Shown one piece after another: positions 17,744 to 38,375 of a DNA stretch of 62,052 bases; position 1 is the stretch's first letter; each line of letters opens with the position of its first letter. Source of the stretch: a virus. A program made the position numbers and the translations under genes. The DNA lies in the IMG/VR virus record IMGVR_UViG_3300021091_004741, positions 1-62,052 of that record; one strand, written 5' to 3'. The notes under the pieces are model-generated. The model made no database searches. It saw nothing but the letters and a program-made list of their open reading frames with translations, and was not told the origin of the DNA.

Positions 17744-18570
17744 AAACAACCGCAATTCTGCCATCGAGAAATGATAACTATGGTGATAACTTATCACACA
17801 GAGCATCTATGTCTTTAAGTTCAATGATTGAATCTCATGATGAGGTAGTTTTTGTAGAATGGAAAATCAAAAACAATGATTCATTATTTTCATCAATCAA
17901 AAATAAATTACCTCATCAGGGCAAATTAAAGTATGTTCCTGTATCCTCTTGTTTTCTGAAAGAACATTACTCTGACATTTATCAGTATACAATAATTGAG
18001 TCAATTGCCAGAAATATTGCAATCAGAAGAGCATCAAACGATTATATAATTTCAACCAATATTGATATTTTGGTCAATGATTTGAACAAGAATATTTTAT
18101 CGGAAAATACTTTTTTTACAGTACCGCGAAGGGACATTCCTCAAGATTTACACTTACAGTTCGATGACTATCAAGACTTACACAAACATATTAACCGTGA
18201 CAAAGATTCATTTAGACCAAAAGAACGAATTAATTCAAAAGACGATATATGGTCTTTAATAAACTGTTGTGGAGATTACCAAATTGGACATAGAAATGTT
18301 TGGTATAAAATGAAAGGATTTGAAGAATCGATACTATTCGGTTGTGGAATAGATACAAACGTGATGAAAAAAGCATCCTTCTTTTCCCAAATAAAAGTTT
18401 TAGACCATTATATTTTTCATCTCAACCATGGAAAAAATAGTCAAATTGATAATGATGAAATACAACCCCCAATATCAAATCAGAACTCTATCATAAGAGA
18501 CTTTATTGAATCATCTAATCCTGACACCTGGGGGATGTCAGATAAAGATTTACCCATAGAAATATTATGA
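17740..18570 (+). CDS. GT-A glycosyltransferase-like protein
   Basis: 276 residues. The N-terminus TTAILPSRNDNYGD is GT2-like. The stretch IARNIAIRRASNDYIISTNID follows the pattern (ARN..i..A..dyi...D.D) of galactosyl-type GT-A enzymes with a metal-binding DxD-equivalent. A later WYKMKGFEESILFGCGID segment matches the acceptor-side GFDE region of the same group. Four-base overlaps on both sides. Confidence 0.75.
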   Translation: MKTTAILPSRNDNYGDNLSHRASMSLSSMIESHDEVVFVEWKIKNNDSLFSSIKNKLPHQGKLKYVPVSSCFLKEHYSDIYQYTIIESIARNIAIRRASNDYIISTNIDILVNDLNKNILSENTFFTVPRRDIPQDLHLQFDDYQDLHKHINRDKDSFRPKERINSKDDIWSLINCCGDYQIGHRNVWYKMKGFEESILFGCGIDTNVMKKASFFSQIKVLDHYIFHLNHGKNSQIDNDEIQPPISNQNSIIRDFIESSNPDTWGMSDKDLPIEIL

Positions 18571-19202
18571 AAAGTATTTTAATAATTGGTGGTGCTGCAG
18601 GTGCTAGAATTGCCACTAACATTTTCAAAAAAACACACCCATATTTTTTTATTTATTATGTTGAGTGTTTTGCTGAGGAAATAATTTCAAATCGTTTATA
18701 TTCGACAGTTGAAAAATCTTTGGAACATCTCAAACAAACTGATGTCGAATATTTTATCGCAACCGGTGATAACAAACTCAGAAGAAAACATTATGAGATG
18801 ATAAAAGATTATACCAACAAGGAACCAATCAATTGTATTCACCCATCAGCCGTTGTCGAAGCAAAAAAAATTGGATTTGGAAATCTGATTTGTCCCAAAG
18901 CTGTTGTACACATGGATTCGATTATTGGAAATGGGACAATAATCAACACATCAGCAGTCATTGAACATGACTGTGTAATTCAGGACTTTGCTCAAGTTTC
19001 TCCAAACGCCACCCTTTGTGGATATGTTGTAATCGGAGAAAATTGTTTTATAAGTGCAGGTAGCACCATAATTCCAAAAATACTTATCGGAAATAACTCT
19101 ACTGTCGCAGCTGGTGCGGTCGTGAAAGAAAACGTTCCTGAAAATGTAATGGTGGCAGGTATTCCATCAAGAATAAAAAAGAACTATAATGAAAAACTTT
19201 AG
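18567..19202 (+). CDS. NeuD/PglD-like sugar O- or N-acyltransferase
   Basis: 211 residues. The N-terminal 75 residues form a small Rossmann-like domain (ILIIGGAAGARIATN). Residues 95-205 are left-handed beta-helix hexapeptide repeats, with HxxxxIGNGTIINTSAVIEHD and a closing VAAGAVVKENVPENVMVAGIPSR. The predicted catalytic His lies in the AVIEHDC turn. This architecture is that of acetyl-CoA-dependent acyltransferases of amino sugars. The next gene encodes the aminotransferase that would supply the amino group. Confidence 0.85.
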   Translation: MKSILIIGGAAGARIATNIFKKTHPYFFIYYVECFAEEIISNRLYSTVEKSLEHLKQTDVEYFIATGDNKLRRKHYEMIKDYTNKEPINCIHPSAVVEAKKIGFGNLICPKAVVHMDSIIGNGTIINTSAVIEHDCVIQDFAQVSPNATLCGYVVIGENCFISAGSTIIPKILIGNNSTVAAGAVVKENVPENVMVAGIPSRIKKNYNEKL

Positions 19203-20337
19203 CATACCAATTTTTCGATTGAACTTCGATTTTTTTTCTAAAATTAAGTTCCTCAAAGGTGCTTGGGATATATTAACATCGGACCGTCCACTTGGTGAAT
19301 CAAAATACGTAAAACTATTCGAGGAAAGATTTTCGAATATGTCAGAAACAAAATATGCAATTGCAGTTTCCAATGGAACTGTTGCAATTGAATTAGCTTT
19401 GAAATCACTCGGAGTCAAAGGAAAAAAAGTTTTGATGCCCTCTAATACCTTTTTCGCTACAAGTGTTGCAGTCACAAATGCTGGAGGCGAAATAGAACTT
19501 GTTGATATGGACCCAAGGTCTTTTTCTTTGAGTTATGAAGATTTGAAAACCAAAATATCATCCGAAATCGGTGCAGTTATAATAGTTCATATAGGTGGAA
19601 TTATATCTGATAAGATTTATAAAATTAAAGAACTTTGTAAGTTACACGATGTTCCATTAATTGAAGATGCCGCTCATGCACATTTCTCTTCCTATGGAAC
19701 TTACCGCGCAGGGTCTATAGGTGAAATAGGGTGTTTCTCATTTTTCCCCACAAAAGTCATGACAACTGGTGAAGGTGGTATGATAACCACAAATAACAAA
19801 GAACTTTATGAAAAAATGAAATCTTTGAAAAACTTTGGAAGAGATATAAATGACGCAGGAATAATTGTTAACGAAGAAGGAAATAATTTTAAAATAAATG
19901 AATTTACTGGTTTACTCGGTTGTGTTGAATTGGATAGAGTTCATAATAGAATTGAAAGAAGAAATGAGCTTTTGGAGGTTTATCAAAAAGAATTAGAAAA
20001 AACAAAATACAAAATTATAAAACAGAAAAAAAGAAGTTCTTGTGCGTATTACAAAGCAATCATAGTTACACCTATGGACGGTATTTGGTTGAAAAAATAT
20101 TGTAAAGAAAAAAACATCACTTTTACTGGTGAAGTCTACAGAATACCAATACATGAACAACCATTATACAAGGACAAATTTTCCTATGTAAATTTACCGA
20201 ACACTGATTATTATTCTAAACATCACGTATGTCCTCCTCTTTACCCCGAGTTGGGTTTTGATGAAGTCAAATATATCTGTGATGTAATGAAACAAGCTTT
20301 GGTAGATTATGAAAAACAGAGTAGCGAAATTAGTTGA
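19189..20337 (+). CDS. DegT/DnrJ/EryC1/StrS family PLP-dependent sugar aminotransferase
   Basis: 382 residues, normal length. Visible are SNGTVAIELALKSLG (phosphate site), IEDAAHAHFSSY with the PLP-stacking Asp, and FFPTKVMTTGEGGMI containing the Schiff-base lysine. The enzyme would aminate a keto nucleotide sugar using glutamate. It overlaps the acyltransferase by 14 bases and the dehydrogenase by 29, so the three probably act on one amino-sugar branch. The enzyme making the keto-sugar was not identified unless it is the next gene. Confidence 0.9.
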   Translation: MKNFSIPIFRLNFDFFSKIKFLKGAWDILTSDRPLGESKYVKLFEERFSNMSETKYAIAVSNGTVAIELALKSLGVKGKKVLMPSNTFFATSVAVTNAGGEIELVDMDPRSFSLSYEDLKTKISSEIGAVIIVHIGGIISDKIYKIKELCKLHDVPLIEDAAHAHFSSYGTYRAGSIGEIGCFSFFPTKVMTTGEGGMITTNNKELYEKMKSLKNFGRDINDAGIIVNEEGNNFKINEFTGLLGCVELDRVHNRIERRNELLEVYQKELEKTKYKIIKQKKRSSCAYYKAIIVTPMDGIWLKKYCKEKNITFTGEVYRIPIHEQPLYKDKFSYVNLPNTDYYSKHHVCPPLYPELGFDEVKYICDVMKQALVDYEKQSSEIS

Positions 20338-21346
20338 GATAAGAAAAATAGAAATCTTCGAGGAAGATATTCCTAAATTAAATAAGGGTCAGATATTGGT
20401 TGCCATGAAATCAGTTGGGATTTGTGGCTCGGATATGCATTATTTTAAAGAAGGGGGTTTAGGTTCTTTTAAAGCACCCCTACCTATGTACATGGGTCAT
20501 GAACCTTCAGGTATTGTTATTGACTATAATGGGTCTCAAAAGTTTAAGGATGGTGACAGAGTAGCTGTTGAACCAGGTATGCCCTGTATTACTTCTTATT
20601 GGTCTTTGAAGGGTAAACATAACCTTTGTGATAAAGGCACTTTTATGGGTGCAAACGCTCAAGGAGCTTTCGCAGACTATGTTATAGTTGAAGAATTACA
20701 ATTGGTAAAATTACCAGAATCAATGTCATTCAACTTAGGTAGTTTAATGGAGCCGTTAGGTGTTTGTTTACATACTGCGAACTTATTAGAACCGAAGTTT
20801 ACCGAATCTGCAACAATATTTGGGGCTGGTCCTATTGGTTTGTGTATGTTTTCAATACTAAAAAAGATGGGATTGAAGAACATTTTCATGGTGGACAAAA
20901 TCCCTTTCAGAGTTGAGTTTGCTAAGTCTTTCGGAGCAAAAGACGCATTTCTTCTCGCGGATGATTACAATAAAAAAATCAAAAGTGCAACTGATGGTTT
21001 TGGAACAAATCTAACAATTGATACAGGTGGTACTTCAGAATCAATTGATGGTTGTATAAACGTAGCGTCGGTCAATGGTAGAGTCGCTTTAATTGGTATA
21101 CCTGAAGCAGACTCAGTCAACTACAACCCACACAGAATGAGAACAAAAGAATTAACTATTAAGAACGTGAGAAGGTCTAATCAGACTTTAGATGATTGTA
21201 TTGTTAATTACTACGATGATTGTGAGATTGAAAAAATAATCTCACATGAATATGATTTTGAGAACATACAAAAAGCATTCGAAATGGTTGCGGATTATCG
21301 AGATAATATATTAAAATGTATCATTAAAAATAATAATCAATTATGA
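20309..21346 (+). CDS. Medium-chain zinc-type dehydrogenase (sorbitol/threonine DH-like)
   Basis: 345 residues. The catalytic-zinc ligands are visible (VGICGSDMHY and MGHEPSG), as is the NAD-binding ATIFGAGPIGLCMF. The structural-zinc loop normally holds four cysteines; here PGMPCITSYWSLKGKHNLC keeps only two, so that zinc is probably lost. The enzyme would oxidise an alcohol or reduce a ketone on a sugar or polyol. Its start overlaps the aminotransferase, suggesting it prepares the keto substrate. Confidence 0.85.
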   Translation: MKNRVAKLVEIRKIEIFEEDIPKLNKGQILVAMKSVGICGSDMHYFKEGGLGSFKAPLPMYMGHEPSGIVIDYNGSQKFKDGDRVAVEPGMPCITSYWSLKGKHNLCDKGTFMGANAQGAFADYVIVEELQLVKLPESMSFNLGSLMEPLGVCLHTANLLEPKFTESATIFGAGPIGLCMFSILKKMGLKNIFMVDKIPFRVEFAKSFGAKDAFLLADDYNKKIKSATDGFGTNLTIDTGGTSESIDGCINVASVNGRVALIGIPEADSVNYNPHRMRTKELTIKNVRRSNQTLDDCIVNYYDDCEIEKIISHEYDFENIQKAFEMVADYRDNILKCIIKNNNQL

Positions 21347-22065
21347 GAAAGATTCTGAGTATAGATGGATTCAGATATAAAACGGAGGAAAGATTAAATG
21401 AAATTAAAAACACTCTGAGATGGAACTCTAAGTTTTTTGATATCATACATGTGTGGTGTCAAGAAGTTTTGGATTATGAGAAATTCGAAGAGTTTCACTC
21501 TGAAAAAATTATTGTCCATAATTTGAACAGAACGGATATGATTTCCATGAAGGATTTATATGATTTTACAAACGAAGTATCGACTGACGAAGATTTCAAA
21601 TTCTTCGCCAATTCGGATACCACATTTGGAGAACAAATTATGGAATATAATTGCCCTGATGATTGGTTTATACTTTTCACCAATCGGTCAATGAGAGACC
21701 CACAAATAGGTCAAAACCCTGAAGCATATCAATTGTCTGAAGATGATGGTTTGATTCTTTTCAATAGAGATGGTATATTAGATACTAATTGGTTTCAAAA
21801 TGATGAATCAATTAAACCATTTGCAATATCTGCACACTGTGGATGGTCATGGAAAACCAAAAAAGAAATGCCAAAAGGAAATTGTTATTTGGGAACACAA
21901 GGAGGAGAAAATTGTTTTTTGAATCAAATCATTTCATCAGGATTTATTCCCAAAGCCGGTGTAGTAAAATACCCCACTTTCCACAATCATAGAACAAATG
22001 AAAAAACAGAAAGGTTTCAGTCAATCACGACGGGACCTAGATTAACTCAATCAAGTTATTTGTAA
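21343..22065 (+). CDS. Glycan-operon protein, GT-A-like
   Basis: 240 residues. A SDTTFG element near residue 88 resembles the DxD region of GT-A enzymes, and aromatic, Gly-rich segments (AHCGWSWKT, GTQGGENCFLNQI) follow. I do not recognise the family with certainty. It overlaps the dehydrogenase by four bases and is followed after three bases by the next gene, so it belongs to the same transcript. Confidence 0.5.
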   Translation: MRKILSIDGFRYKTEERLNEIKNTLRWNSKFFDIIHVWCQEVLDYEKFEEFHSEKIIVHNLNRTDMISMKDLYDFTNEVSTDEDFKFFANSDTTFGEQIMEYNCPDDWFILFTNRSMRDPQIGQNPEAYQLSEDDGLILFNRDGILDTNWFQNDESIKPFAISAHCGWSWKTKKEMPKGNCYLGTQGGENCFLNQIISSGFIPKAGVVKYPTFHNHRTNEKTERFQSITTGPRLTQSSYL

Positions 22066-22068
22066 AAT

Positions 22069-22677
22069 ATGATATTCAACAAAAATTATACAAATCATTC
22101 ACGATGGAATGATTTATCAGACAAACACAAAAATACTTTAACGATACCAAATCTTTTTGCAAATATTCTCCACGAGTATCAGGACAAGATTCCTGATACA
22201 CAAAATCTGAGAAGTGCAATTGAAACTTGGACTTTTGACGCGAAGACAACATCAATTTTAGCAAATCATTTTGATATTGTTTTTACTGTAGAATTATACC
22301 CTGACGTTAACCCATATGACCAAATCAGTTATAGAGAGATTCATGAAGGATATTCAAAAGATTACGATAACATAACTTTTCTATATGGTCCCTTGAATGA
22401 AGTAATTCCAGAGATTTTATCTGAACTACCAGATGAGAGATTTATGTTCCTTTTGGATTTTCATCGAAACTCTACAAACCCAATCAAAGATGAAATTGAA
22501 ACAATAAAAAAATACAGTAGAAATAAAAATCACGTCTTTTTGATTGATGATTGTAATTTCTTGGGTACTTTGAATTTCCCAACACCACAAGAATTGAAAG
22601 AACTTTTGTACTCAATAAATCCTGAATATACACTTGTGGAAATAAATGATGGAAATAAAATAATGTTAGTATACTGA
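22069..22677 (+). CDS. Possible divergent methyltransferase-like protein
   Basis: 202 residues. The alternation of strands and helices (FDIVFTVELYPD, RFMFLLDFHRN, HVFLIDDCNFLG) suggests a Rossmann-like fold such as a class I methyltransferase, and FTVELYP could be the acidic loop. The glycine-rich motif I is not evident, so SAM binding is doubtful. It shares one base with the next start. Activity unknown. Confidence 0.45.
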   Translation: MIFNKNYTNHSRWNDLSDKHKNTLTIPNLFANILHEYQDKIPDTQNLRSAIETWTFDAKTTSILANHFDIVFTVELYPDVNPYDQISYREIHEGYSKDYDNITFLYGPLNEVIPEILSELPDERFMFLLDFHRNSTNPIKDEIETIKKYSRNKNHVFLIDDCNFLGTLNFPTPQELKELLYSINPEYTLVEINDGNKIMLVY

Positions 22678-23612
22678 TGAAAAAATTTATTATTACAACG
22701 ACAATTAACGAACCAACAGAAGCGACACACAAGTTCTGTGAGATTGCAGATAAGAAAGATTTCAAGTTCGTTATTATCGGAGACCTCAAAACTCCACATG
22801 ACAAATACAATAAACTCGTATCCAAACACGATAACGTTTTATATCTCAGTCCTGAGGACCAAGAAAAAATATACCCTGAACTTTCTGAAAAAATTGGATG
22901 GAGAACAATTCAGAGAAGAAATATTGGTTTTGTCTATGCTTACCAACAAGGCGCAGAAATAGTCGCGACAATTGATGATGACAATATCCCCTACGAAAAC
23001 TGGGGTGATAATATTATGATTGGAAAAGAAGTTGAAGTTGACCTATTCGAAAATACATCATGTCCATATTTCGATGCAATTTCAGTTACCAATCATAATG
23101 ACCTTTGGCACAGAGGTTTCCCAATCGAATATTTAAATGTTAAAAATCACTCTGAATACAAAGGGAAAGTCAAAATGATTCCACTTGTACAAGCGGAGTT
23201 TTGGGATGGTGACCCTGATATCGATGCAATCTGTAGACTCAGTAAAAAACCAATTGTCAAGTTTGAACCCTTCGAACCTTTTACAACAAGACAACTGTCA
23301 CCCTTCAACTCACAAAATACTTTCTTACATAGAAGTGTTTTGAAACACTACTCAGTGTTCCCATATGTTGGAAGGATGGATGACATTTGGGGTTCCTACG
23401 TGATGCAATATCATTTTCCAAACTCTGTTCTTTATACAAAAGCATCAGTATATCAAGCAAGAAACCCACAAGACTTGGTAAAAAACTTGGAAAATGAAAT
23501 TATAGGATACAGAAACACATTAAACTTTTTAAATAATATTCAAGACTACAGGAATTTACTTCCACAAGAAACTTTATCATATTTTAACATATATCAAACT
23601 TATTTCAAATGA
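22677..23612 (+). CDS. STELLO/DUF288- or RGP-like glycosyltransferase
   Basis: 311 residues. The opening FIITTTINEPTEA, then RRNIGFVYAYQQGAEIVATI and DDDNIPYENWGD with a DDD metal site, resembles the STELLO/DUF288 and reversibly-glycosylated-polypeptide enzymes known mainly from eukaryotes. A later QNTFLHRSVL and GRMDDIWGSYVMQ fit the acceptor half. It overlaps the epimerase by four bases. Either a glycosyltransferase or a sugar mutase is possible; the family assignment is from memory of motifs. Confidence 0.6.
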   Translation: MKKFIITTTINEPTEATHKFCEIADKKDFKFVIIGDLKTPHDKYNKLVSKHDNVLYLSPEDQEKIYPELSEKIGWRTIQRRNIGFVYAYQQGAEIVATIDDDNIPYENWGDNIMIGKEVEVDLFENTSCPYFDAISVTNHNDLWHRGFPIEYLNVKNHSEYKGKVKMIPLVQAEFWDGDPDIDAICRLSKKPIVKFEPFEPFTTRQLSPFNSQNTFLHRSVLKHYSVFPYVGRMDDIWGSYVMQYHFPNSVLYTKASVYQARNPQDLVKNLENEIIGYRNTLNFLNNIQDYRNLLPQETLSYFNIYQTYFK

Positions 23613-24703: not shown

Positions 24704-25441
24704 ATGGCGAGAGAACAAAGAAGGAAACTTCCAACCCCGACACCAACGGAGGATGGAATTATTCCTAAAACAAAAAAACAGATAATCTGCTCCTTAATAA
24801 AAAAGAAAACCAAACAAAAATTTTTATCCGAAAGTCAAAAAAAATACTATGAAATACTAACTCAAAATCAAATAGCCATTTGTTCAGGACCTGCGGGTGT
24901 GGGCAAAAGTTATATCGCTATGAAATGTGCCGTTGATTTGTTGGTAGACCCTAATACACCATACGAGAAAATTATAATTGTTAGGCCCGCTGTTGAGGCC
25001 GAAGAAAAATTAGGAAGTCTACCTGGTGGTGTTGAAGAAAAATTGGACCCTTATATTTTCCCGTCTTACTATCTTTTGAACAAAATAATTGGTAAGGATA
25101 TGCGAGAGAAGTTGAAAGATTTCGAAGCCATAGAAGTTTTCGCACTTGCTTACATGAGAGGTATGAACATAGATAATTCAATTTTAATTTTTGAAGAAGC
25201 TCAAAACTCAACACCTTCTCAGATGAAATTATTATTGACTAGAATTGGATTCAATTCTAAATTCTTCATCTCAGGTGATTTGGAACAGTTTGACAGACAT
25301 AAGGACAAAACTCATACAGGTCTATGGGATGTTATCACTAAGTTTCAAGACACAGAAGATATAGGTATTTTTGAATTTCATTCCAATGACATTGTTAGAA
25401 ATCCTCTAATTACCAAAATATTACAAAAATATGAAGAATGA
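24704..25441 (+). CDS. phoH: PhoH-like ATPase
   Basis: 245 residues. Walker A is CSGPAGVGKSYIAMK, then IIIVRPAVEAEEKLG-SLPGG, and Walker B is NSILIFEEAQN, followed by SGDLEQFDR. This is the standard PhoH core, often carried by large phages; a role in RNA or nucleic-acid metabolism is suspected but unproven. The N-terminal 40 residues are basic. It lies three bases after the epimerase and overlaps the next gene by four. Confidence 0.93.
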   Translation: MAREQRRKLPTPTPTEDGIIPKTKKQIICSLIKKKTKQKFLSESQKKYYEILTQNQIAICSGPAGVGKSYIAMKCAVDLLVDPNTPYEKIIIVRPAVEAEEKLGSLPGGVEEKLDPYIFPSYYLLNKIIGKDMREKLKDFEAIEVFALAYMRGMNIDNSILIFEEAQNSTPSQMKLLLTRIGFNSKFFISGDLEQFDRHKDKTHTGLWDVITKFQDTEDIGIFEFHSNDIVRNPLITKILQKYEE

Positions 25442-28171: not shown

Positions 28172-28918
28172 ATGCAAGAAACTATTTCTGCACAAACAGA
28201 AAATGTTTCATCTAAGAAAAGAGGTAGAAAGGCAGTTAAAGAAAATTATTTCGATGTTAGAGAAGAAACCGCAGTTAGAAAATTTTTAGTTGCGGAATCA
28301 ATGGACGAAAAGAATAAAATTTATAACCAATTTTTAAGAGCGCCTCTTGATAAGATGATTTCTTCTATTATCAGACGGTACAAACTGTATCGAAAAGATA
28401 TGGATTTCAATGAGATTCATACAGATACACATTCGTTTTTAATGACCAAAGTTGATAAGTTCAGACCGTCAAAAAATAAAAAAGCTTATTCTTATTTTGG
28501 AACAATTTGTAAGAATTATTTGATGGGTCAAATCATCAAAGACCAAAAAGAGACGAACAGAAAAATATCTTACGAGGACATTTCTTCAACTTTAGAGGAG
28601 AGACCAGATTTAATCTATAGAATTGATGATGAGGTTTTAGATTATGATTATGTAATTATTGAATATATTAAAGAACTTAAAGAATATCTCGAAGTGGAAA
28701 CTTTGAATGATAATGAAAAAAAATTAGGATACGCTTTGATTGACTTATTTGACAATTACCAAACTATTTTTTCAGGTGCCGAAAATAATAAGTTCAATAA
28801 AAATATCATTTTGTTATCACTCAGAGAAATGACAAATCTGAGTACAAAAGAAATTAGAAGCTCAATCAAAAAGTTTAAAAAACTATACAACAGTATTCAA
28901 TACAGATTGAAAAATTAA
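28172..28918 (+). CDS. 55: T4 gp55-like late-transcription sigma factor
   Basis: 248 residues. The N-terminal 30 residues are basic and Ser-rich. The segment FLRAPLDKMISSIIRRYKLY resembles gp55 and sigma region 2.1, and KKAYSYFGTICKNYLMGQII resembles region 2.2-2.3, the part that grips the RNA polymerase clamp and reads the -10 element. The C-terminal third has LSLREMTNLSTKEIRSSIKK, an HTH-like helix pair. In T4, gp55 directs host polymerase to an extended TATA-like late promoter with no -35. A recurrent TATTTAT element in this window is the natural partner. Confidence 0.75.
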   Translation: MQETISAQTENVSSKKRGRKAVKENYFDVREETAVRKFLVAESMDEKNKIYNQFLRAPLDKMISSIIRRYKLYRKDMDFNEIHTDTHSFLMTKVDKFRPSKNKKAYSYFGTICKNYLMGQIIKDQKETNRKISYEDISSTLEERPDLIYRIDDEVLDYDYVIIEYIKELKEYLEVETLNDNEKKLGYALIDLFDNYQTIFSGAENNKFNKNIILLSLREMTNLSTKEIRSSIKKFKKLYNSIQYRLKN

Positions 28919-28925: not shown

Positions 28926-28933
28926 TATTTATA
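28926..28933 (+). promoter_or_regulatory. TATTTATA late-promoter-like element
   Basis: AGTATTTATA directly after the sigma-factor gene and three bases before the ATG at 28937. It probably starts transcription of the baseplate group. Confidence 0.55.
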
Positions 28934-28936: not shown

Positions 28937-29302
28937 ATGCCAAGACCTCAAAGAAAAGAAATAAATTTTACTAAGGATTCTATATTAGCTCTCATGCAAG
29001 AGATTTATAATGAACTTGTTGAGCAGAGACAAACGGCAATCAGAATTCAAAACAAAATGTTGACCATGTTGAAAGACCCTGAAGACATGACAACAATTGG
29101 TCCTGTTATTGAAAAACAACAAAAAATTGTAAACGATTGTGTTGAGAAAAAAATTAGCTTGTCGAAATTACAATCGAGTATTTGGGAGAAATCCAACTCA
29201 AGTGATGAATCTTTTACCCTCTCGGATTTAGACGATGACTTAATACAGAATCTTATTGAAAAGGATGTTTCTAATGACGAAGAAACATACAAAATGAGAT
29301 AA
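28937..29302 (+). CDS. Small helical phage protein
   Basis: 121 residues, helical and charged. A central coiled-coil-like stretch (ILALMQEIYNELVEQRQTAI) and an acidic C-terminus (LSDLDDDLIQNLIEKD). No family is recognised. It lies just ahead of a large structural protein (one-base gap), so a tail or baseplate assembly role is likely by position only. Confidence 0.65.
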   Translation: MPRPQRKEINFTKDSILALMQEIYNELVEQRQTAIRIQNKMLTMLKDPEDMTTIGPVIEKQQKIVNDCVEKKISLSKLQSSIWEKSNSSDESFTLSDLDDDLIQNLIEKDVSNDEETYKMR

Positions 29303-29303
29303 G

Positions 29304-31394
29304 ATGCAAGCTTTAGATTTAGAAAACTCATATGACTCGGCGAAGAAAAAAATAAACTCCGCCAAAACTTTACGTGATGTAAACTCTGCAGCAAATGACC
29401 TTCAAACAAGTGCAGGAAATTCCTTTTCTCAAGCAAATGATGCAATATCATCCCAATTAGATAATATAAAAGAACTACAGAAGAGGTTCGAAAGAAATGT
29501 CCCGACTTCCATGGACCAGATTCTCGAAATGATTGGTCTCACCAAAGGGAATGGTTCAGATACCCTCAGATACCTCAAGAGAAAAGTAATTTTGGCTGCA
29601 GCAACTATTGAACCACAGTTAGCTGAGATTATGAAAAAAGAGGTTGTGAAAGCTTTAGGTTGCGCAGAAGAACAACAATACGTCGGACTACCAGTTTCAG
29701 GACTGACAAGAACTCCCCTGAAACTTCAACCTCCTCAAATAGGTTTTTACATACCAGCACAATCAATTGATATATTTGGTCAACTTAAGACTACACTGAA
29801 CTCAAAATTGGGGAAAATATTTTATGAAAGACAAACACCTTCGGGGAGTGTTACATTCAAGCCATTCGGAGGGAATGTTCCCTTTCCGATGAATAAAATG
29901 TTGAACGAAATGATGCAAAATGACAACAATGGTAGGTCATTCAATGATATAATCGGCAAATTTTATCAAGGTGAATCAACACAGCCTCTTTTCGATGTTA
30001 TATATTCCAACACAAATGACGTTGGTGTATCAGGAGATTATTTCAGAACCGTATTGTTAAATAAAGAAGCGGGTGTTGGTAATGTAGCCAATACAGTTGG
30101 TCAATTTATTAATGATTATTATTCTAGTATTAAACTAGTAGAACCAGCCAACATCACAGCCAGATTGACAAACTTATTGACAGGTGCGGTTGACATGCAA
30201 GCTAAACTTGGTTACAAACAATTAGAGAATAATTCCAAGTTTATGTTAATAGTTCAAAGAATCTTGGGTTTATGTTTTGATAGTCGAAGGTCAATAGATG
30301 TAAGTGGAATTGCTAAGGTTGCTGAACTTGACGGAATAGATGACAGTTTTTATAGACTGAATGAAATAGATTTAAGGAATATTGACAATCAAATTACCAA
30401 TGTACAAAATGGTGTTGTTGAATACGTTGATTGCGGTAATGTAAAATTACCTGTAGATTTTGAAAATCTTACAAATCAATTAGAAGAATTCAAACTACAA
30501 TTTACAGGCAAAACTACAAATCAAGTTGTTTTGAAAATGGAAGAAATACTTGATTCGATTGCAGAAAACCCACAATGGAAATTAAAAGTGCCGTCAGGAG
30601 TTGATATTAAATTACAACTCAACTTAAACATAATAAAACAAATACCGAAAGCAATTGCTGCTGAGCTTCTGTCACCAAAAAATATATTTCCTATTTTCAT
30701 AATGTTGTCAATTGTTCAGGAGCAAGCCAAAAACTCGTACACACAGGCCCTCGGACAGATACCTGAAGGAACAATAGAAACCTCAGCAATGACTCTTAAC
30801 ATTCAAGTTAATAATACAATTAATAGCCCTTCGGATTTTTTACAAAAGTTCAAAAGTTTTTGTGTCGAAATCATATCACAAATACAAGCGATTTTTTTAA
30901 AACAACTATTCGAAATCCTGAAACGAGACATAATCAATTTACTAAATGTAATATTGAAAGATATGCAGAAAAACGCAAGTTTAAAAAAACTTGCAATACT
31001 TCTTAGGTTGGTTACTATCGGAGTGGTGTTTGTAAAATTAGTTATAGATTATAAAAAATGTAAATCACTCGTAGATGAGATTTTAGCGTTATTGACATTA
31101 ATTGGTGGTGGATTGAAACCTTTCTCCCTTCCACTTTGGGCTCAATTCGCATCACAAGGATTACCTGGCACAGATTCCAACAGAGCTCTCATGAACGCAA
31201 TTGAGGAAATGCAAGCCTTGGGTATGCCTACCGGTCCATTACCCGATGGTTCACCTAATATGATGTTACAATTCGGTAAATCTTTATTATCAGGAGCAGA
31301 AAGAGAAAATTCAGAAAACGGAAAACTTGAAGCGAGTGTAATTGTACCGCCTTTGACGGGGGGTGTTTTAAAAATTTTTGGAAAATCAGTTTAA
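29304..31394 (+). CDS. Large tail/baseplate-type structural protein
   Basis: 696 residues. The N-terminal 120 residues are helical. The middle is mixed, and residues about 460-610 carry two strongly hydrophobic helices (NIFPIFIMLSIVQ and RLVTIGVVFVKLVIDY). The C-terminus has a Gly/Pro-rich tail (MPTGPLPDGSPNM) and a closing VPPLTGGVLKIFG. I recognise no named family. Its position before the OB-fold baseplate protein and its size suggest a baseplate or tail component; the hydrophobic helices could also fit a membrane-contacting protein. Confidence 0.65.
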   Translation: MQALDLENSYDSAKKKINSAKTLRDVNSAANDLQTSAGNSFSQANDAISSQLDNIKELQKRFERNVPTSMDQILEMIGLTKGNGSDTLRYLKRKVILAAATIEPQLAEIMKKEVVKALGCAEEQQYVGLPVSGLTRTPLKLQPPQIGFYIPAQSIDIFGQLKTTLNSKLGKIFYERQTPSGSVTFKPFGGNVPFPMNKMLNEMMQNDNNGRSFNDIIGKFYQGESTQPLFDVIYSNTNDVGVSGDYFRTVLLNKEAGVGNVANTVGQFINDYYSSIKLVEPANITARLTNLLTGAVDMQAKLGYKQLENNSKFMLIVQRILGLCFDSRRSIDVSGIAKVAELDGIDDSFYRLNEIDLRNIDNQITNVQNGVVEYVDCGNVKLPVDFENLTNQLEEFKLQFTGKTTNQVVLKMEEILDSIAENPQWKLKVPSGVDIKLQLNLNIIKQIPKAIAAELLSPKNIFPIFIMLSIVQEQAKNSYTQALGQIPEGTIETSAMTLNIQVNNTINSPSDFLQKFKSFCVEIISQIQAIFLKQLFEILKRDIINLLNVILKDMQKNASLKKLAILLRLVTIGVVFVKLVIDYKKCKSLVDEILALLTLIGGGLKPFSLPLWAQFASQGLPGTDSNRALMNAIEEMQALGMPTGPLPDGSPNMMLQFGKSLLSGAERENSENGKLEASVIVPPLTGGVLKIFGKSV

Positions 31395-31395
31395 T

Positions 31396-31599
31396 ATGGA
31401 AAAAGAAAAATTAGATAAAATTATTGAAGAACAAAAAAACTTGAAAGATTTACCAAATCAAAAATTAATTGAGTTGATGGATTTATTATCTACTGACTTT
31501 GATGAAACTAAAAAGATTTTGATTAACCAAACTATCTATTTAGACAATTTGGAAATACTTTATAATAATGTTCTGAAGGAATATCAAAATAGAGCATAA
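31396..31599 (+). CDS. Very small helical protein
   Basis: 67 residues from ATG 31396, one base after the preceding stop. It is almost entirely helical and Glu/Lys/Leu-rich (KLIELMDLLSTDFDETKK), as in a small coiled-coil chaperone. Its last base overlaps the start of the baseplate gene (TAATG), so it may be an assembly helper for it; this is inference. Confidence 0.6.
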   Translation: MEKEKLDKIIEEQKNLKDLPNQKLIELMDLLSTDFDETKKILINQTIYLDNLEILYNNVLKEYQNRA

Positions 31600-33392
31600 T
31601 GCAATTACAGGACAATTCAATATTATTTCAAGCATTAGTTTTGGATAACCAAGACCCTCTCATGCTTGGAAGAATAAGAGCTGTAAGGTTAATAGATAAT
31701 ATTGATGACGTATTGAAGTCAATAACAAATCCAAACTGGAATCCACAAAAGGATTTATGGACAATTAGAGACCCTTTTGTATGGGCACCCCTGATTCCAT
31801 ATTTTAATTATTCGGTTCCAAAGCAAGATGAATTAGTGTTGGGTCTTTTCGCGAACAGTGATGTCAAATATATTAACCAATACTACATTCAATCTACGTT
31901 TTATTCCCCAACAGCCACAGGATTCCAATATTATCAGGGTGCAAATAAGTTTACTGCGACAGGTATACAAATTGCAAATCCAAAACCATTAAAGACTTTC
32001 ACACCTTCGGGTGTCACATATTCCGACAAAGGAGTACATAAAGGAGTTTTTCCTGAACCCACAGACAACTCTTTGCTCGGTAGAGGTAGTGCAGATGTTA
32101 TTGTGAAGGAGGAAGAAGTATTAATTAGAGCAGGAAAATTTAAAGGCGCAACTTTACAACCTAATGTCCCACCAACAGCTAACCAACAAAGAGCCTTTCT
32201 TCAACTTTCAAGATTTCCAAAATCTACGATAGACAATCCACCGAAAACTGCTTTTGAACTCAAAGAAATTGTAGTGGGTGTGAATTATCTAATTGAGTAT
32301 AATATCTTGAATCCTGAAAATGTTCAAGACAAGTTTACTGGTCGTATTTCATTGTATCAATTAGGAAGAGGAACTGAAACTAATTCCAAACAACTTACAG
32401 TTGACTCTAAAGTTCCTGATTCTTTGAAATCTCTTGTGATGTATGAAGATTTCACTGCATTATCAAGCGGAGATACTATCAATTTCATTAATGATTTTAT
32501 CAAAAATTGTAATGAAAATAATATTTCGAAAACAACAGGAAAAGTTCTTTTTCCGAATTCAACCTTGAAGTTTCCGTTTTATTACAGACCTGATAATGTC
32601 TTTTATGACCTAATGATTAGCCCCGACTCTAATGTATCAAAATTGAGGTCTTACGGTACACAATTTTGTTTATCAGACACCTGTACTGTTGACATCAAAG
32701 TTGTGAACATTGAGACATCACAAATTGTTGTTGCGAAATCTTCTACAGGTCCACAATCAAATCTGAATCAGATTTATAGTGATGTAATTCAACAAGTTAC
32801 AACAGGATTGACATCGAATGGTTATAGTCTTATAACTCTACCAACTATCAATCAATTAGATGGAACCATAATTTCACCCGCACCATCGAATACTCAAATC
32901 ATAAAAAGAAACTTAACTTTGATTTTTAATGGTATAAAATTGAATCCTGCGATGGTACCAGGATTTTCATTGGTTTATGCTCAAGGTAAGACAGGTCCTG
33001 TAATAGACAATCAGACAAGGAAAATAGAATCACAAAAAACTATTGTTTCACAAAACACTGTTGCAGCTTTAGGTAGTGACAAAATTTATTTATTATCATA
33101 CACTTCACAAAAACAAGGAAAAGCAAAAATTAATTTTGACGATACTCTCTACGGAATACCAAGCACCATTTTTACAAAAGAAATTGCTAAGAAAACTTCG
33201 AGTATGGTTAGAGGAGAAGAATTGATAGAACTTTTAAATCTTATTGTTAGATTCTTGTTGACACACACGCACGCATTTCCAGGAATGCCACCTGTCCCAA
33301 TAACACAAGATGGGTCAACAGCTCAAAAATTACTTACCGAAATGCAAAATGCCCTCAATAAGGTTTTGAATAAAGATATAAGAATTAATTGA
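31599..33392 (+). CDS. Baseplate protein with gp5/VgrG-like OB-fold N-terminus
   Basis: 597 residues. Residues 1-110 fit an OB-fold of the gp5/VgrG kind: LMLGRIRAVRL, then WAPLIPYF and VPKQDELVLGLF, strands that fit the gRVrV...WVP...PE.GdeV pattern. The rest is beta-rich. Near the C-terminus THTHAFPGMPP is reminiscent of metal-binding His turns in phage baseplate spikes. No lysozyme domain is seen, unlike T4 gp5. Probably part of the central baseplate hub. Confidence 0.7.
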   Translation: MQLQDNSILFQALVLDNQDPLMLGRIRAVRLIDNIDDVLKSITNPNWNPQKDLWTIRDPFVWAPLIPYFNYSVPKQDELVLGLFANSDVKYINQYYIQSTFYSPTATGFQYYQGANKFTATGIQIANPKPLKTFTPSGVTYSDKGVHKGVFPEPTDNSLLGRGSADVIVKEEEVLIRAGKFKGATLQPNVPPTANQQRAFLQLSRFPKSTIDNPPKTAFELKEIVVGVNYLIEYNILNPENVQDKFTGRISLYQLGRGTETNSKQLTVDSKVPDSLKSLVMYEDFTALSSGDTINFINDFIKNCNENNISKTTGKVLFPNSTLKFPFYYRPDNVFYDLMISPDSNVSKLRSYGTQFCLSDTCTVDIKVVNIETSQIVVAKSSTGPQSNLNQIYSDVIQQVTTGLTSNGYSLITLPTINQLDGTIISPAPSNTQIIKRNLTLIFNGIKLNPAMVPGFSLVYAQGKTGPVIDNQTRKIESQKTIVSQNTVAALGSDKIYLLSYTSQKQGKAKINFDDTLYGIPSTIFTKEIAKKTSSMVRGEELIELLNLIVRFLLTHTHAFPGMPPVPITQDGSTAQKLLTEMQNALNKVLNKDIRIN

Positions 33393-33400
33393 TATTTATT
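33393..33400 (+). promoter_or_regulatory. TATTTATT late-promoter-like element
   Basis: GATATTTATT begins at the stop of the baseplate gene and lies 12 bases before the ATG at 33413. A purine-rich AAAAAGGA follows it, one of few possible ribosome-binding sequences here. Confidence 0.5.
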
Positions 33401-33412
33401 TAAAAAGGATAA

Positions 33413-34915
33413 ATGTCAATTTTAAGGTCATACATAGATAAGAATAATACAATTATATCTAATACCTTCATCAACACAGCAAGGAATCCTGTGATTGAAC
33501 TTAATTTTGGAGCATCAGATTTTATTGTTCCTAATTATGGTTTTACAAGATATATCTTTGATTTTGATTTAGCTTTACTTGAACAGAATATTGCAACAGG
33601 AGTTATTTCAACAGGATGTACCTCAGCAATGACTCACACCTTAAAAATGACCAATACATCTTCTTTTGACAATGAACTATTAAATACATTCATGTCAAAC
33701 TCAAGAAGAAGAGCAACTTCATTTGATTTGATATTATTCAGGATTCCCAAATCATCGGGTTCAACAGGTAATCCACAATTTTGGGATGAGGGTGTTGGTT
33801 ATGATTATACTGACTTCGATTTATCTGAGGGAAGTCCTAGTGGACAACAAACACCTCTTACTCTTGTAGATTCCAGAGCCTTTTCAACAAGACCATCAAA
33901 TTGGTATCAAACCACAACCATTTCAGGGTGGTCACAAACCGGCATCTATGATAATAAGAATCAAGGTACGGTTAATTTTTCAGGTCTTACAATCGTAGCA
34001 AGACAACACTTTGACCAAGGTAATGAAGACATCAATATGAACATGACCTCAGAAATTAATGGTATATTAAATGGTACAATTACTGGAGTTACTGGTTGGG
34101 GTCTCGCATACCTTCCACAAATAGAAAACATTACAGGATTAACTGACAGTTATAGTGTTGCTTTCTTTTCAAAATATACTCAAACTTTTTATCAACCTTA
34201 TCTATTGACAAATTATAATGATTTGATTTTGGACGACAGAAATATGTTCTTAAAGAATCAAGTGAATAATTTGTATCTATACGTCTATCAAAACGGAGAT
34301 TTTGTCAATTTAGATTCGACACCATTTGTTAGAATCGAGGATAGAAATGGTGACGTGGTGCCAGGTATGGCCTCATTGACAACTTGTTTGACAACTAAAG
34401 GTGTTTATGAAGTAATCGTCCCTAATGGTTTTACAGGTTCTCCTACACCTTGTCAATACTTTGATATTTGGTCAGGTCTTACAATCAACGGACAATCATT
34501 ACCAAACGTCATCAACAATTTTACACTTCAACAATATCAGGCAGGTATTCAAATTGGTTCTAGTTCTCAAGAACCAATAAAGTTTGGATTTGATTTCTAC
34601 GGAATATTACAGAATGAGCAAATACTTAACAGTGATATCAGAAAAGTTGGTGTTACAATTAAGAAAGCCTACACAGGTCAGCAACCCCTTTTAAATGTTT
34701 CTGCATTTTACAGGGTTTATGTCAAAGAAGGAACAACTGAGGTTCAAGTCCAAGATTGGACTCCAATTAATAGAACTCCTAATGAGTATTACTTTATATT
34801 TGATATGAGAGACAAAATACCAAATCAATATTATGTAGATATCCAAGTGAATACTTCGGGAGAAAGAGATACTTATAAGAAACAATTAACATTCGATATA
34901 GTAAATAAAAAATAA
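33413..34915 (+). CDS. Virion structural protein (baseplate or fibre)
   Basis: 500 residues, Asn/Thr/Gly/Tyr-rich and predicted mostly beta. Recognisable stretches are GFTRYIFDFDLALLEQ near residue 45 and repeated aromatic turns such as FWDEGVGYDYTDFD. No catalytic motif and no signal peptide. The composition matches tail-fibre or baseplate proteins, and it follows the OB-fold hub gene on the same strand with a TATTTATT between them. Confidence 0.68.
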   Translation: MSILRSYIDKNNTIISNTFINTARNPVIELNFGASDFIVPNYGFTRYIFDFDLALLEQNIATGVISTGCTSAMTHTLKMTNTSSFDNELLNTFMSNSRRRATSFDLILFRIPKSSGSTGNPQFWDEGVGYDYTDFDLSEGSPSGQQTPLTLVDSRAFSTRPSNWYQTTTISGWSQTGIYDNKNQGTVNFSGLTIVARQHFDQGNEDINMNMTSEINGILNGTITGVTGWGLAYLPQIENITGLTDSYSVAFFSKYTQTFYQPYLLTNYNDLILDDRNMFLKNQVNNLYLYVYQNGDFVNLDSTPFVRIEDRNGDVVPGMASLTTCLTTKGVYEVIVPNGFTGSPTPCQYFDIWSGLTINGQSLPNVINNFTLQQYQAGIQIGSSSQEPIKFGFDFYGILQNEQILNSDIRKVGVTIKKAYTGQQPLLNVSAFYRVYVKEGTTEVQVQDWTPINRTPNEYYFIFDMRDKIPNQYYVDIQVNTSGERDTYKKQLTFDIVNKK

Positions 34916-34916
34916 A

Positions 34917-35390
34917 ATGACTAAAGTAATTAAATTATCTGAATCTGATTTGAACAGATTGGTAAAAAAAGTAATTAACGAAACATCAGCTCAACGGACT
35001 GGAAATTATATGTTCTTCTCAAATCTTCAGCAGATGATGAGACAATGTGAACTACTTTTAGACTTAGACCCACTGATGCTGGATGAGATTTTACAGAATG
35101 GTCACGATTGGGCAGATGACCACGTGGCTGAAGCAAAGACAAATATGGACCAAGTTTTTGATTTTATGATGAACGAAAAAAACAAAATGAATCAATATCT
35201 TGAATACGAAGATATTCATGAGGGAAGAAAGAAAACGGGTACTAAATTATGTTCGAGAGGCAAGGCAGCTGCGAAGGCAAAGTTCAAGGTCTATCCTTCG
35301 GCTTACGCTAATGGTTATGCAGTACAAGTTTGTAAAGGTAAAATGCCTGGTTTGGATGGAAAAAAACATTGCTCAGGTGCTTATTGTTAA
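34917..35390 (+). CDS. Small packaged/structural protein with basic Cys module
   Basis: 157 residues. The N-terminus (KLSESDLNRLVKKVINE) is an amphipathic helix ending in VINE, close to the (L/I)xxE cleavage pattern of T4-type prohead protease. Residues 40-105 are helical. The C-terminal 48 residues are a basic module with three cysteines (KLCSRGKAAAKAKFKVYPSA, then VQVCKGKMPG and KKHCSGAYC), of a kind seen in marine T4-like phages. Lys/Arg richness suggests contact with packaged DNA; inferred. Confidence 0.65.
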   Translation: MTKVIKLSESDLNRLVKKVINETSAQRTGNYMFFSNLQQMMRQCELLLDLDPLMLDEILQNGHDWADDHVAEAKTNMDQVFDFMMNEKNKMNQYLEYEDIHEGRKKTGTKLCSRGKAAAKAKFKVYPSAYANGYAVQVCKGKMPGLDGKKHCSGAYC

Positions 35391-35413
35391 TCTAAAAACT
35401 TTTCATATATTTG
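35384..35413 (+). promoter_or_regulatory. Bacteroidetes primary-sigma-type promoter
   Basis: TTG at 35384-35386, 19 bases, then TATATTTG at 35406-35413, which fits the Bacteroidetes -33/-7 pattern (TTTG...TAnnTTTG). The ATG at 35418 follows after only four bases, so the start of transcription would fall near the first codon. Confidence 0.6.
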
Positions 35414-35417: not shown

Positions 35418-35828
35418 ATGAGACCAAAAGTTGTCGGCTTTATACCCCGCCTTTTATACCGAATGTTTCTCAAACTTAAAGAACGGTTTGACCCAAGACC
35501 ACCGATTACTAATGAAGAGAAATCTTCAGTAGAAATATGTAATAGACTGATAGAGAAGGAATCTTCAAAACTCACATTTGCACCAAAATCTTACAAGAGA
35601 TTCATAAAAAATGATGATTTTAATATGTTCATCGTTATCGAGAACAGAACAGTAAATCTTATAAACCACGTATATAGTTACAGTGTTTTCATAGAAAACG
35701 ATGAATTATATTCTGATTTGGTGAATAAGTTTGATGAAGAATTAGAAAACAGAAGACAAGAATTGGAAAACGAAATTAAGAATAATATTCAACACTCCCT
35801 ACAGAATATCCTTGAAAAGATTGTTTAA
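35418..35828 (+). CDS. Unknown phage protein behind a host-type promoter
   Basis: 136 residues. A basic N-terminus (MRPKVVGFIPRLLYRMFLK) could be a membrane-associating amphipathic helix, then a mixed domain, then a C-terminal coiled coil (FDEELENRRQELENEIKNN). No family is recognised. Unlike most phage genes here it follows TTG-N19-TATATTTG rather than TATTTAT, which suggests early expression by host polymerase. Its stop overlaps the convergent gene by four bases. Confidence 0.68.
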   Translation: MRPKVVGFIPRLLYRMFLKLKERFDPRPPITNEEKSSVEICNRLIEKESSKLTFAPKSYKRFIKNDDFNMFIVIENRTVNLINHVYSYSVFIENDELYSDLVNKFDEELENRRQELENEIKNNIQHSLQNILEKIV

Positions 35829-36682
35829 TATCTTCCCGTAAAATATACGTAAAGTACTTCAGGAATCTTCACACACATTTTTTTCAATCCAGCTTGATTG
35901 ATACAAGGTATGGGTTCCAAATTGGCAACTCGTCTTTTAATTTCAATAGGAGCCCCTTTGATTTTACTATATATTTGTTCTACAGGATACAACCTTTCAG
36001 ACTCATAAACCTCTTTCAGAACTCTTTTGATAATTCTCTGTAAAGACTCATTTTTGGATTTATACGAAACCATTTTGGGTTTGTTTCCTGTACCTGCTTT
36101 CGAATGGGTTTTTTCTGCTCTTCTTTTTTGAGCACATGCAGCTTTTTTTTGAGAAGCTGACATTTTTGAAGCAACCCCTGCGGCTCTACATTTCGGATAA
36201 CCTTTATCACTTGCACTTGGTCTTCCACAAGGGGGGTGACCGCCACCTTCTTTTTTTCTACAAATATTAACCCAAGGACCACTAGGTTGTTTACTCCCTT
36301 TAGGTTTTTTCTTTTTACCAAACCAAACTGCCAAATCTTCTTTGATGAGTTGTTCTTCAATTGTCTGTAAAGGGTCTACCCCAACCTGTGCTAAGTTAGC
36401 TCCCTCTTCATCGTTTGAATTCTTGTAGAACTTTTTCAAATACATCGCTACTGAAGAAAGTTCATCTGTAATCTTCTCTATTTTTTCTCTTTCTTGAGGA
36501 GTTTCCAAATAATCACCATCCGCTTCTTCATAAGCGAGTTTAGCGTTATCATAATCGTAAACCTTTTCTACGAAAGGACCCAATTGGTCTTTTTTCCATA
36601 TCTGTGGTGCTAAAATGACTGGTACTTTAAACTTACCTGCTGATGCTGATGTGGTTGCTTCTCTTATAGAAAGTTTTTTCAT
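35825..36682 (-). CDS. Structural/packaged protein with Cys-Gly-rich basic module
   Basis: 285 residues. The N-terminus (SIREATTSASAGKFKVPVIL) resembles N-termini of other T4-like phage structural proteins. The middle is acidic and helical. Residues about 130-205 form a basic module with regularly placed cysteines (GPWVNICRKKEGGGHPPCGR, then YPKCRAAGVA and KKAACAQKRRAEK), a possible zinc site. The end has an amphipathic ESLQRIIKRVLKEVYE. TATTTATG lies 7 bases before the ATG. DNA contact in the capsid is inferred. Confidence 0.68.
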   Translation of the reverse strand: MKKLSIREATTSASAGKFKVPVILAPQIWKKDQLGPFVEKVYDYDNAKLAYEEADGDYLETPQEREKIEKITDELSSVAMYLKKFYKNSNDEEGANLAQVGVDPLQTIEEQLIKEDLAVWFGKKKKPKGSKQPSGPWVNICRKKEGGGHPPCGRPSASDKGYPKCRAAGVASKMSASQKKAACAQKRRAEKTHSKAGTGNKPKMVSYKSKNESLQRIIKRVLKEVYESERLYPVEQIYSKIKGAPIEIKRRVANLEPIPCINQAGLKKMCVKIPEVLYVYFTGRY

Positions 36683-36689: not shown

Positions 36690-36697
36690 CATAAATA
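36690..36697 (-). promoter_or_regulatory. TATTTATG late-promoter-like element
   Basis: AGATATTTATG on the minus strand, 7 bases before the ATG at 36682, within the 30-base divergent gap to the plus-strand gene at 36713. Confidence 0.5.
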
Positions 36698-36954: not shown

Positions 36955-37266
36955 ATGAAAAAAATATTATCTTTAATACTATTTTGTTTACTTCATACAG
37001 TAGTTTTTTCTCAAACACCACCAAAGGGTGAACCAAAAGATTTTTACAATGAATACAAAAAAGAAATGGATTCGTTAAGTAAACTATCTGGTAAGGTAGT
37101 GACAGGGTATCTTCTCACAACATCAGGAAATAAAAAACAACTCACAATCTTTTACATCGAAAACGATTCGCTCAAAAGTATGATTTTAGATACAACGAGC
37201 CGTCAAAGTCCATACCGTGGTACCAAGAGGACTGTAGACTCTGTAAGTAAGGTTCTTCATAGATGA
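36955..37266 (+). CDS. Small secreted protein with Sec signal peptide
   Basis: 103 residues. A clear signal peptide (MKKILSLILFCLLHTVVFSQ) with positive n-region, hydrophobic core and a Bacteroidetes-like FSQ end. The mature part is about 83 residues, with a beta-like module (VVTGYLLTTSGNKKQLTIFY). It is unusual among these phage genes in having an export signal. Its last 81 bases overlap the convergent gene 37186-38364. It could modify the infected cell envelope; function unknown. Confidence 0.62.
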   Translation: MKKILSLILFCLLHTVVFSQTPPKGEPKDFYNEYKKEMDSLSKLSGKVVTGYLLTTSGNKKQLTIFYIENDSLKSMILDTTSRQSPYRGTKRTVDSVSKVLHR

Positions 37267-38364
37267 GTCTTTTGTTATTATTATTGACCCTCCTCTTCTT
37301 CCTGCAAAATCTGCATCAGTATTGTCACCTTTGATTGGTAATTTATCAAATGTGTACCACTTTATTTGTTTTGCATTTGTTTCGTAATCTTTACTCCATT
37401 TGATATTGACCGCAGCACCTAATATGTCCTTTATTCCTTGGTTCGGAGTCAACTTATTCAGAACATAATCAGTTGAAATAGGTTTTAGGTCTTGTGGAAA
37501 AGGTAATGGTGGTTTTCCGTTGTACGCATTACCTAAGAACGTCGCTAAATATATTGACCAATATTCTCCTGGCACACCAACAAATCCAGTTGAATACGTT
37601 TTGTCTCCTGTAGTTATTGTTAACATATCAGGTACATCTGCAGGTATAAAAACAAACTTCAATTTTTGACCATCAGGTAACTGACTTATATCTATCGTTT
37701 TTTCAACAAAAACAAAATTATTTTCTTTTTTTGCTTGTCCACCTTTACCCTCATCTTTGAAATTACATATTTTTCTAATTTCTTCTTCTTTTTCTCCTTG
37801 GGCTAGAATATTAAAAGTAACGTACTGATGTTTTGTATATTCGGAACTATTAGCTAACTTTCTTATATCATCTATACTCATTTGTGGGTTAATTTTCCAA
37901 TCAGGACCTTGAGCGCCTAAATCTCTCACAACTATTTCTACATTTTTAGGTAGTTTATCAACTAAATAGTTTCTCAAAGTTTCCGCCCTCAATTTCGACA
38001 ATTGTCCCTCAGGAAGTTTTTTCTCAGGTATGTAATCAATTTTAGGGTCGCCAGTCGATGGATATTTTTCCCTATCATAATTTGTAACCTTGGATTCTGA
38101 GGATACTATTTCAACCTTAGTTCTTTGATTTTTCGGAAAAGTTTGTAAATAATTATTTATTTGATTTATAATACTGTCAACCTGTTCTTTATTAAACTGT
38201 GAATATTTTCCACCCTGAAATGAATTATTTGGCAGTGTTAATGTTATAGGCTTTGATATTGTTTGTTGTTCTGATAACAAATAATGTTTCTTTGTTCTAC
38301 TTTCATGTAGTGAGAGTATTCTATACTTTTCCTCAAAGGGAATATGGAATCCTGTTTTAATCAT
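37186..38364 (-). CDS. OmpA-like-domain phage protein
   Basis: 392 residues. The N-terminal 35 residues (FHIPFEEKYRILSLHESRTK) are not a signal peptide. Residues about 60-160 resemble an OmpA C-terminal peptidoglycan-binding domain: helix VDSIINQINNYLQTF, strand TKVEIVSSES, then LSKLRAETLRNYLVDKL matching the LSxxRAxxVxxyL motif. The remainder is beta-rich and unassigned. A virion protein that touches peptidoglycan, or a head/tail component, is possible. It lies behind the capsid terminator with TATTTATT three bases before ATG. Confidence 0.62.
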   Translation of the reverse strand: MIKTGFHIPFEEKYRILSLHESRTKKHYLLSEQQTISKPITLTLPNNSFQGGKYSQFNKEQVDSIINQINNYLQTFPKNQRTKVEIVSSESKVTNYDREKYPSTGDPKIDYIPEKKLPEGQLSKLRAETLRNYLVDKLPKNVEIVVRDLGAQGPDWKINPQMSIDDIRKLANSSEYTKHQYVTFNILAQGEKEEEIRKICNFKDEGKGGQAKKENNFVFVEKTIDISQLPDGQKLKFVFIPADVPDMLTITTGDKTYSTGFVGVPGEYWSIYLATFLGNAYNGKPPLPFPQDLKPISTDYVLNKLTPNQGIKDILGAAVNIKWSKDYETNAKQIKWYTFDKLPIKGDNTDADFAGRRGGSIIITKDSSMKNLTYRVYSPLGTTVWTLTARCI

Positions 38365-38367: not shown

Positions 38368-38375
38368 AATAAATA
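38368..38375 (-). promoter_or_regulatory. TATTTATT late-promoter-like element
   Basis: AGATATTTATT on the minus strand, between the capsid terminator (38385-38406) and the ATG at 38364, three bases from the start. The terminator-element-start order argues that it is a promoter. Confidence 0.62.

Follow-up and report, generated by a model that had tools for sequence, protein, structure and literature searches.

Does the open reading frame (ORF) at 28172-28918 of the virus record IMGVR_UViG_3300021091_004741 encode a late sigma factor related to gp55 of phage T4, and is the box TATTTAT behind it the promoter element that this sigma factor reads? A preliminary description had claimed as much and had added that the box leads a baseplate unit and is read in the reversed sense of the T4 late promoter. 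We analyzed the whole record (positions 1-62,052; 62,052 bases), called the window in the following, together with two large relatives, G001 (321 kb) and G002 (309 kb), and the further genomes G003, G004, G005, immuto, RM378, LR756508 and Mel-JY01. In our judgment it is probable (about 80%) that the ORF product is a late sigma factor homologous to gp55, encoded by a Far-T4-like jumbo phage, and that it directs the host core polymerase to TATTTAT late promoters that have no -35 element.

The sigma factor gene and the box behind it

28172-28918, + strand: gene for the gp55-like sigma factor, 248 amino acids (aa), ATG start (phmmer, PDB profile match, fold match)
28244-28636, + strand: residues 25-155, comprising the sigma region 2 domain and a long helix and superposing on T4 gp55 residues 10-139 (fold match)
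28637-28915, + strand: additional, wholly helical C-terminal domain (residues 156-248) with a helix-turn-helix-like pair at its end (predicted structure, weak matches)
28926-28932, + strand: TATTTAT box heading the unit 3' of the sigma gene, 4 nucleotides (nt) before the ATG (81/81 loci)
28937-29302, + strand: conserved gene for a protein of 121 aa (MPRPQRKEINF...) that opens the box-led unit; tail/baseplate by synteny only

The ORF 28172-28918 is a genuine gp55 homologue. The region-2-like peptides PLDKMISSII and KKAYSYFGTICK, on which the preliminary description had based its assignment, are present, and the assignment is borne out by sequence (phmmer, PHROG 234, PDB profile) as well as by fold. 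The homologues collected include 80 close relatives (77-85% identity) from viral contigs and a distant group at ~25% identity. T4 gp55 as a single phmmer query matches the G001 orthologue with an E value of 1.4e-4 (among 331 proteins). With a profile of 43 close relatives, the best match in all PDB sequences is T4 gp55 (7d7c_F; E 0.071), and no gap interrupts their alignment in the core of region 2. Of 75 homologues, 6 match PHROG 234 (late sigma factor, gp55 family); in G001 (E 0.004) and G002 (E 5.7e-4) this PHROG matches the gp55-like gene and not the gene for an RpoD-like sigma factor. A cellular origin of the sigma gene was rejected, since genome contigs yielded no relative of the protein.

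The AlphaFold model (pLDDT 77) matches sigma factors, and its best compact structural match is T4 gp55 (Z 10.7, rmsd 3.9, 121/137 residues); the structural likeness that the preliminary description had expected from such a comparison was thus obtained. Common to both proteins is the region-2 fold with a long fourth helix (PMC2988020, PMC7892883; PHROG 234). The extra C-terminal domain of about 90 residues (residues 156-248; pLDDT 87) is separate and helical and has no counterpart in T4 gp55. Its likeness to sigma region 4 is weak, with a best Z of 5-6, and suggestive only.

The stop codon of the sigma gene ends at 28918, and TATTTATA spans 28926-28933, which leaves 7 bases between them, in accordance with the distance of within 8 bases given earlier; the next ATG is at 28937. 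A box between the sigma gene and the next gene is kept in 81/81 loci with 41 distinct flanking contexts, and the spacer to the next gene is 4 nt in 79/81 loci. The box at the head of the unit is therefore real, whereas the baseplate label of the genes behind it could not be confirmed: none of the five ORFs at 28937-35390 has a Pfam match, the sole clear PHROG match among them (the ORF at 34917) is to a PHROG of unknown function, and phmmer gave no support from immuto. What links them to a baseplate is synteny, since the syntenic phage immuto has its baseplate genes downstream. With this synteny-based label, the sigma gene adjoins a structural unit, unlike T4 gene 55.

TATTTAT as a probable promoter element

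Genes were called by one simple rule in the window, G001, G002 and T4, and heptamers were counted in the 40 nt before the ATG. TATTTAT is the top heptamer in the window (13/62 genes vs 0.58 expected; reverse complement 3), in G001 (98/331 genes vs 3.4 expected; reverse complement ATAAATA 16 vs 3.4) and in G002 (73/351 genes vs 5.1 expected; reverse complement 18). It still ranks first when the background is an order-3 Markov model of the upstream sequences; this background replaced an enrichment without correction for upstream base composition, which had been misleading in G004, G005 and Mel-JY01. Across the whole window, exact TATTTATA is only mildly enriched (11 vs 5.75 expected). The presence of the box is conserved between orthologues, with the tables [[111,4],[9,37]] for G001/G002 (Fisher 2e-23) and [[34,1],[0,12]] for window/G001. 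A chance origin of the box placement is ruled out by the enrichment, the orthologue conservation, the Markov background and the 81/81 loci. We found no earlier report of the TATTTAT box as such in the open-access literature searched, subscription papers being outside its scope.

The identical code returned ATAAATA/TATAAAT for T4, with ATAAATA 21 times vs 1.3 expected and TATTTAT 6 vs 1.3. The reading of the T4 box in a reversed sense was therefore rejected: the non-template strand truly carries TATTTAT, comparison with the T4 control makes its sense orientation clear, and a change at two positions suffices to explain the difference. The box sites in the window are as follows, with two host-type boxes given for contrast.

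3509-3515, - strand: TATTTAT before gene 1598-3499 (sequence scan)
3529-3535, + strand: TATTTAT, divergent to the box at 3509-3515, 15 nt before an ATG at about 3551
33393-33399, + strand: TATTTAT 13 nt before gene 33413-34915, conserved in G001 and G002
36691-36697, - strand: TATTTAT before gene 35825-36682
38369-38375, - strand: TATTTAT 4 nt before gene 37186-38364, predicted leaderless
42098-42104, - strand: TATTTAT before gene 40276-42075, which is followed by the major head protein gene 38430-40235
43182-43188, - strand: TATTTAT before the head maturation protease gene 42446-43168 (T4 gp21 homologue)
44641-44647, - strand: TATTTAT before gene 43924-44625
46516-46522, - strand: TATTTAT before the portal gene 44648-46486 (T4 gp20 homologue)
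52392-52398, - strand: TATTTAT before gene 52007-52378
53179-53185, - strand: TATTTAT 5 nt before gene 52418-53173, predicted leaderless
56129-56135, + strand: TATTTAT 4 nt before gene 56140-56787, predicted leaderless
58690-58696, - strand: TATTTAT before gene 57633-58682
35406-35413, + strand: host-type TAnnTTTG box (TATATTTG), 4 nt before gene 35418-35828
57625-57632, - strand: host-type TAnnTTTG box, 4 nt before the peptidase gene 56784-57620

As in the T4 late system, the box precedes head and tail genes. In G001 it stands before the homologues of gp13, gp18, gp20, gp21 and gp25, that is 5 of the 8 late genes matched, and before none of 9 early or middle homologues (gp61, gp41, gp43, gp47, gp55, rI.-1, nudE, td, rnh); with the early/late assignment taken from T4, the Fisher test gives 0.009. 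The homologues of gp3, gp17 and gp23 in G001 have no box directly upstream. The two major misses in the window are the major head protein and terminase genes, each closely behind other genes, and these may be transcribed from boxes farther upstream.

A further trait shared with T4 late promoters, and anticipated in the preliminary description, is the single TATA-like box without a -35 element. A TTG lies 22-23 nt upstream of 51% of the host-type TAnnTTTG sites, but at any offset upstream of no more than 5% (<=5%) of the TATTTAT sites in the same genomes. This bears on the notion that the host sigma factor itself reads TATTTAT as a variant of its -7 box, which would make a phage sigma factor dispensable. 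Although both kinds of box have equal spacing to the ATG, TATTTAT is devoid of the TTTG of the -7 box and of the -33 TTG, and both boxes occur together in only 4/331 genes of G001 (TATTTAT 99, TAnnTTTG 30 in all), which makes a host sigma reader very improbable. Bacteroidetes primary sigma promoters (-33 TTTG, -7 TAnnTTTG; PMC6847099, PMC7366714) are found in the same phage genomes, with the same minimum of 4-5 nt from box to ATG as TATTTAT. This shared minimum suggests that the same core polymerase would use both.

The distance from TATTTAT to the ATG is bimodal: 88/198 sites (44%) lie at 4-6 nt, 9 at 7-12 nt and 50 at 13-16 nt, whereas T4 late boxes lie 11-80 nt from the ATG. Orthologues tend to retain their spacing class: 11 are leaderless in both genomes, 12 short in both, and 2 switch between these classes. 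Since the -7 element of F. johnsoniae occupies -12 to -5 (PMC6847099), a spacing of 4 nt would place the start at the A of the ATG, and boxes at 4-6 nt are predicted to give leaderless late mRNAs. In the hosts such mRNAs are rare: they make up 5.5% in F. psychrophilum (PMC9723704), and 3.7% of the 5' untranslated regions (UTRs) in B. thetaiotaomicron are shorter than 10 nt (PMC7366714). A box so close to the start codon, in a phage with no evident Shine-Dalgarno enrichment, could also act at the RNA level, in ribosome recruitment or mRNA processing, and not be a promoter. We regard this as very unlikely, because the spacing has two classes with a gap between them, TAnnTTTG promoters have the same minimum, the presence of the box divides late from early homologues and the T4 promoter word from the identical code differs at two positions only. 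Upstream of the boxes of G001 and G002, and partly of immuto and G004, there is a weak A/T patch (76-96% A+T) at -17 to -14 from the box start, which was not seen in T4 or RM378.

The probable reader of the box

From co-occurrence, the missing -35 element and the placement before late genes, we infer that the gp55-like protein reads the TATTTAT box; these grounds favor it as the reader but are not proof. In the phages immuto, G004 and G005, a gp55-like gene goes with TATTTAT enrichment, and Sigma70_r2 has no match. RM378 (NC_004735) has a diverged gp55-like gene, and its top word is TATTTAA (39 vs 7.2 expected); of the 61 occurrences in the genome, 39 are in sense orientation within 60 nt upstream of genes. 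Ahead of many RM378 genes there is the box TTATTTAA and then an A-run, 10-13 nt from where the box begins.

Several observations weigh against the explanation as a whole. In LR756508 a homologue is present, yet TATTTAT is not enriched in that half of the genome which was examined. Pfam applied to the single protein from the window gives only a weak Sigma70_r2 match (E 0.055), but a weak score is normal for the family, since T4 gp55 in its own genome scores only 14.5 bits with this model; the G001 orthologue scores 13 bits. A profile of all 75 homologues found gp55 neither in PDB nor in T4, so that the evidence for kinship with gp55 is the close-family profile, the phmmer query with T4 gp55, PHROG 234 and the fold. 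The hydrophobic-acidic, clamp-binding C terminus of T4 gp55 is absent, the C terminus of the family being basic with the consensus KKLYxxIQxKMKN, and no passing match to the sliding clamp families PF02916, PF09116 or PF02768 was obtained in G001 and G002, although diverged clamps could escape these models. Finally, G001, G002 and G003 each encode an RpoD-like sigma factor with a strong Sigma70_r2 match that could read the box.

This last protein (266 aa, regions 2-3-4) offers an alternative, in which TATTTAT is a phage promoter of the RpoD-like sigma and the gp55-like protein has some other role; a sigma factor is annotated in RM378 as well. Yet a sigma factor with region 4 should show a -35 element, and TATTTAT sites show none. 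Moreover, immuto, G004 and G005 show the enrichment and a gp55-like gene while these phages yield no Sigma70_r2 match, and it is the late homologues that carry the box, as the logic of gp55 predicts. An RpoD-like reader is therefore unlikely. Its gene lies on the reverse strand at about 1330-2127 in the G002/G001 stretches and is followed by a hairpin and a T-run, and the stem-loop contains TATTTAT.

If the gp55-like protein is the reader, its specificity is new within the gp55 family, as the preliminary description had foreseen, with TATTTAT in place of TATAAATA and on a polymerase that is probably of the Bacteroidetes type, given the TAnnTTTG promoters with a -33 TTG. The octamers TATTTAT(A) and TATAAATA are near-palindromic and differ only at the central -10/-9 (AA to TT); T-13 A-12 T-11 and A-8 T-7 are shared. 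Positions are numbered here by homology with T4, and the box seems to lie 1-2 nt nearer the start. T4 gp55 inserts A-12, A-9 and A-8 into pockets that involve Y97, N13/H95 and T99; those for -12 and -8 are deep (PMC7892883). The A-12-stacking tyrosine of T4 (Y97) corresponds in the ungapped alignment to Y108, which is invariant in 75 homologues; in place of H95 there is Tyr here and Phe in the distant homologues, and in place of T99 Gly here and Ser/Thr in the distant homologues. The two-position change is enough because the flipped A-12 and A-8 are kept, and a changed -9 pocket would be the simplest model of the box difference.

The gp55-like sigma would bind the host RNA polymerase (RNAP) core via its region-2 domain and direct it to single-element late promoters with TATTTAT(A/T) on the non-template strand and no -35 element. 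The change in specificity would be located in the shallow pocket for base -9 (T4 N13/H95), with the Tyr stacking on A-12 retained. Transcription from boxes 4-6 nt from the ATG would start at or beside its A, yielding leaderless mRNAs, and the second class of boxes would give short leaders of roughly 10 nt. Late timing, start sites, use of the host core and independence from the sliding clamp are here alike matters of inference. A phage RNAP beta subunit was not found with the profile PF00562; this is weak evidence, but it is consistent with the use of the host core.

The phage and its late program

The window belongs to a phage of the T4 superfamily: its portal, head maturation protease, major head protein and terminase match head-and-packaging PHROGs, and T4 gp17, gp20, gp21 and gp23 align directly to their counterparts. 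The diverged gp23/gp20/gp21/gp17 homologues, a major head protein of 601 aa that is about 15% longer than that of T4, and a PhoH gene at 24704-25441 fit the published description of Far-T4 phages (PMC4360716). That paper reports no T4 core transcription-regulation genes, in contrast to the gp55 homologue identified here and the diverged gp55-like gene and TATTTAA box of RM378. By major head protein, Flavobacterium phage immuto is among the closest cultured phages, and RM378 is more distant. From the TAnnTTTG promoters and the cultured relatives, the host is probably a member of the Bacteroidetes. Mel-JY01 (PP395634.1), recorded from Microcystis, has a Far-T4-like core, a gp55-like gene and mild TATTTAT enrichment; its recorded host is cyanobacterial, not Bacteroidetes.

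The sigma gene closes a colinear long gene run (6225-28171, + strand) that differs among relatives over 10386-23612, and the two genes immediately 5' of it have weak glycosyltransferase matches. Other genes of the window are:

53540-53935, - strand: Hsp20-like gene
54100-56115, + strand: ATP-dependent (Lon-like) protease gene
58866-59288, + strand: complete tmRNA gene (Rfam RF00023, 78.5 bits; ARAGORN tag peptide VEEAVVEA)

Far-T4 phages are widespread, uncultured aquatic phages whose transcription program is a stated blank (PMC4360716). Our analysis supplies a candidate late sigma factor, a promoter code and >150 predicted late promoters in two genomes, and the cultured pair immuto / Flavobacterium sp. 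LMO8 makes the proposal directly testable. Only tentatively would we go further and picture a Far-T4 clade with a re-coded late program, in which a gp55 homologue, whose own C-terminal domain stands where T4 gp55 has the clamp tail, recognizes TATTTAT with no tethering to the replication clamp, and nearly half of the late mRNAs are leaderless in hosts that hardly use such mRNAs. The boxes TATAAATA, TATTTAT and TATTTAA along one sigma lineage would be natural material on the evolution of -10 recognition, and leaderless late mRNAs are predicted in Bacteroidetes hosts that seldom use them.
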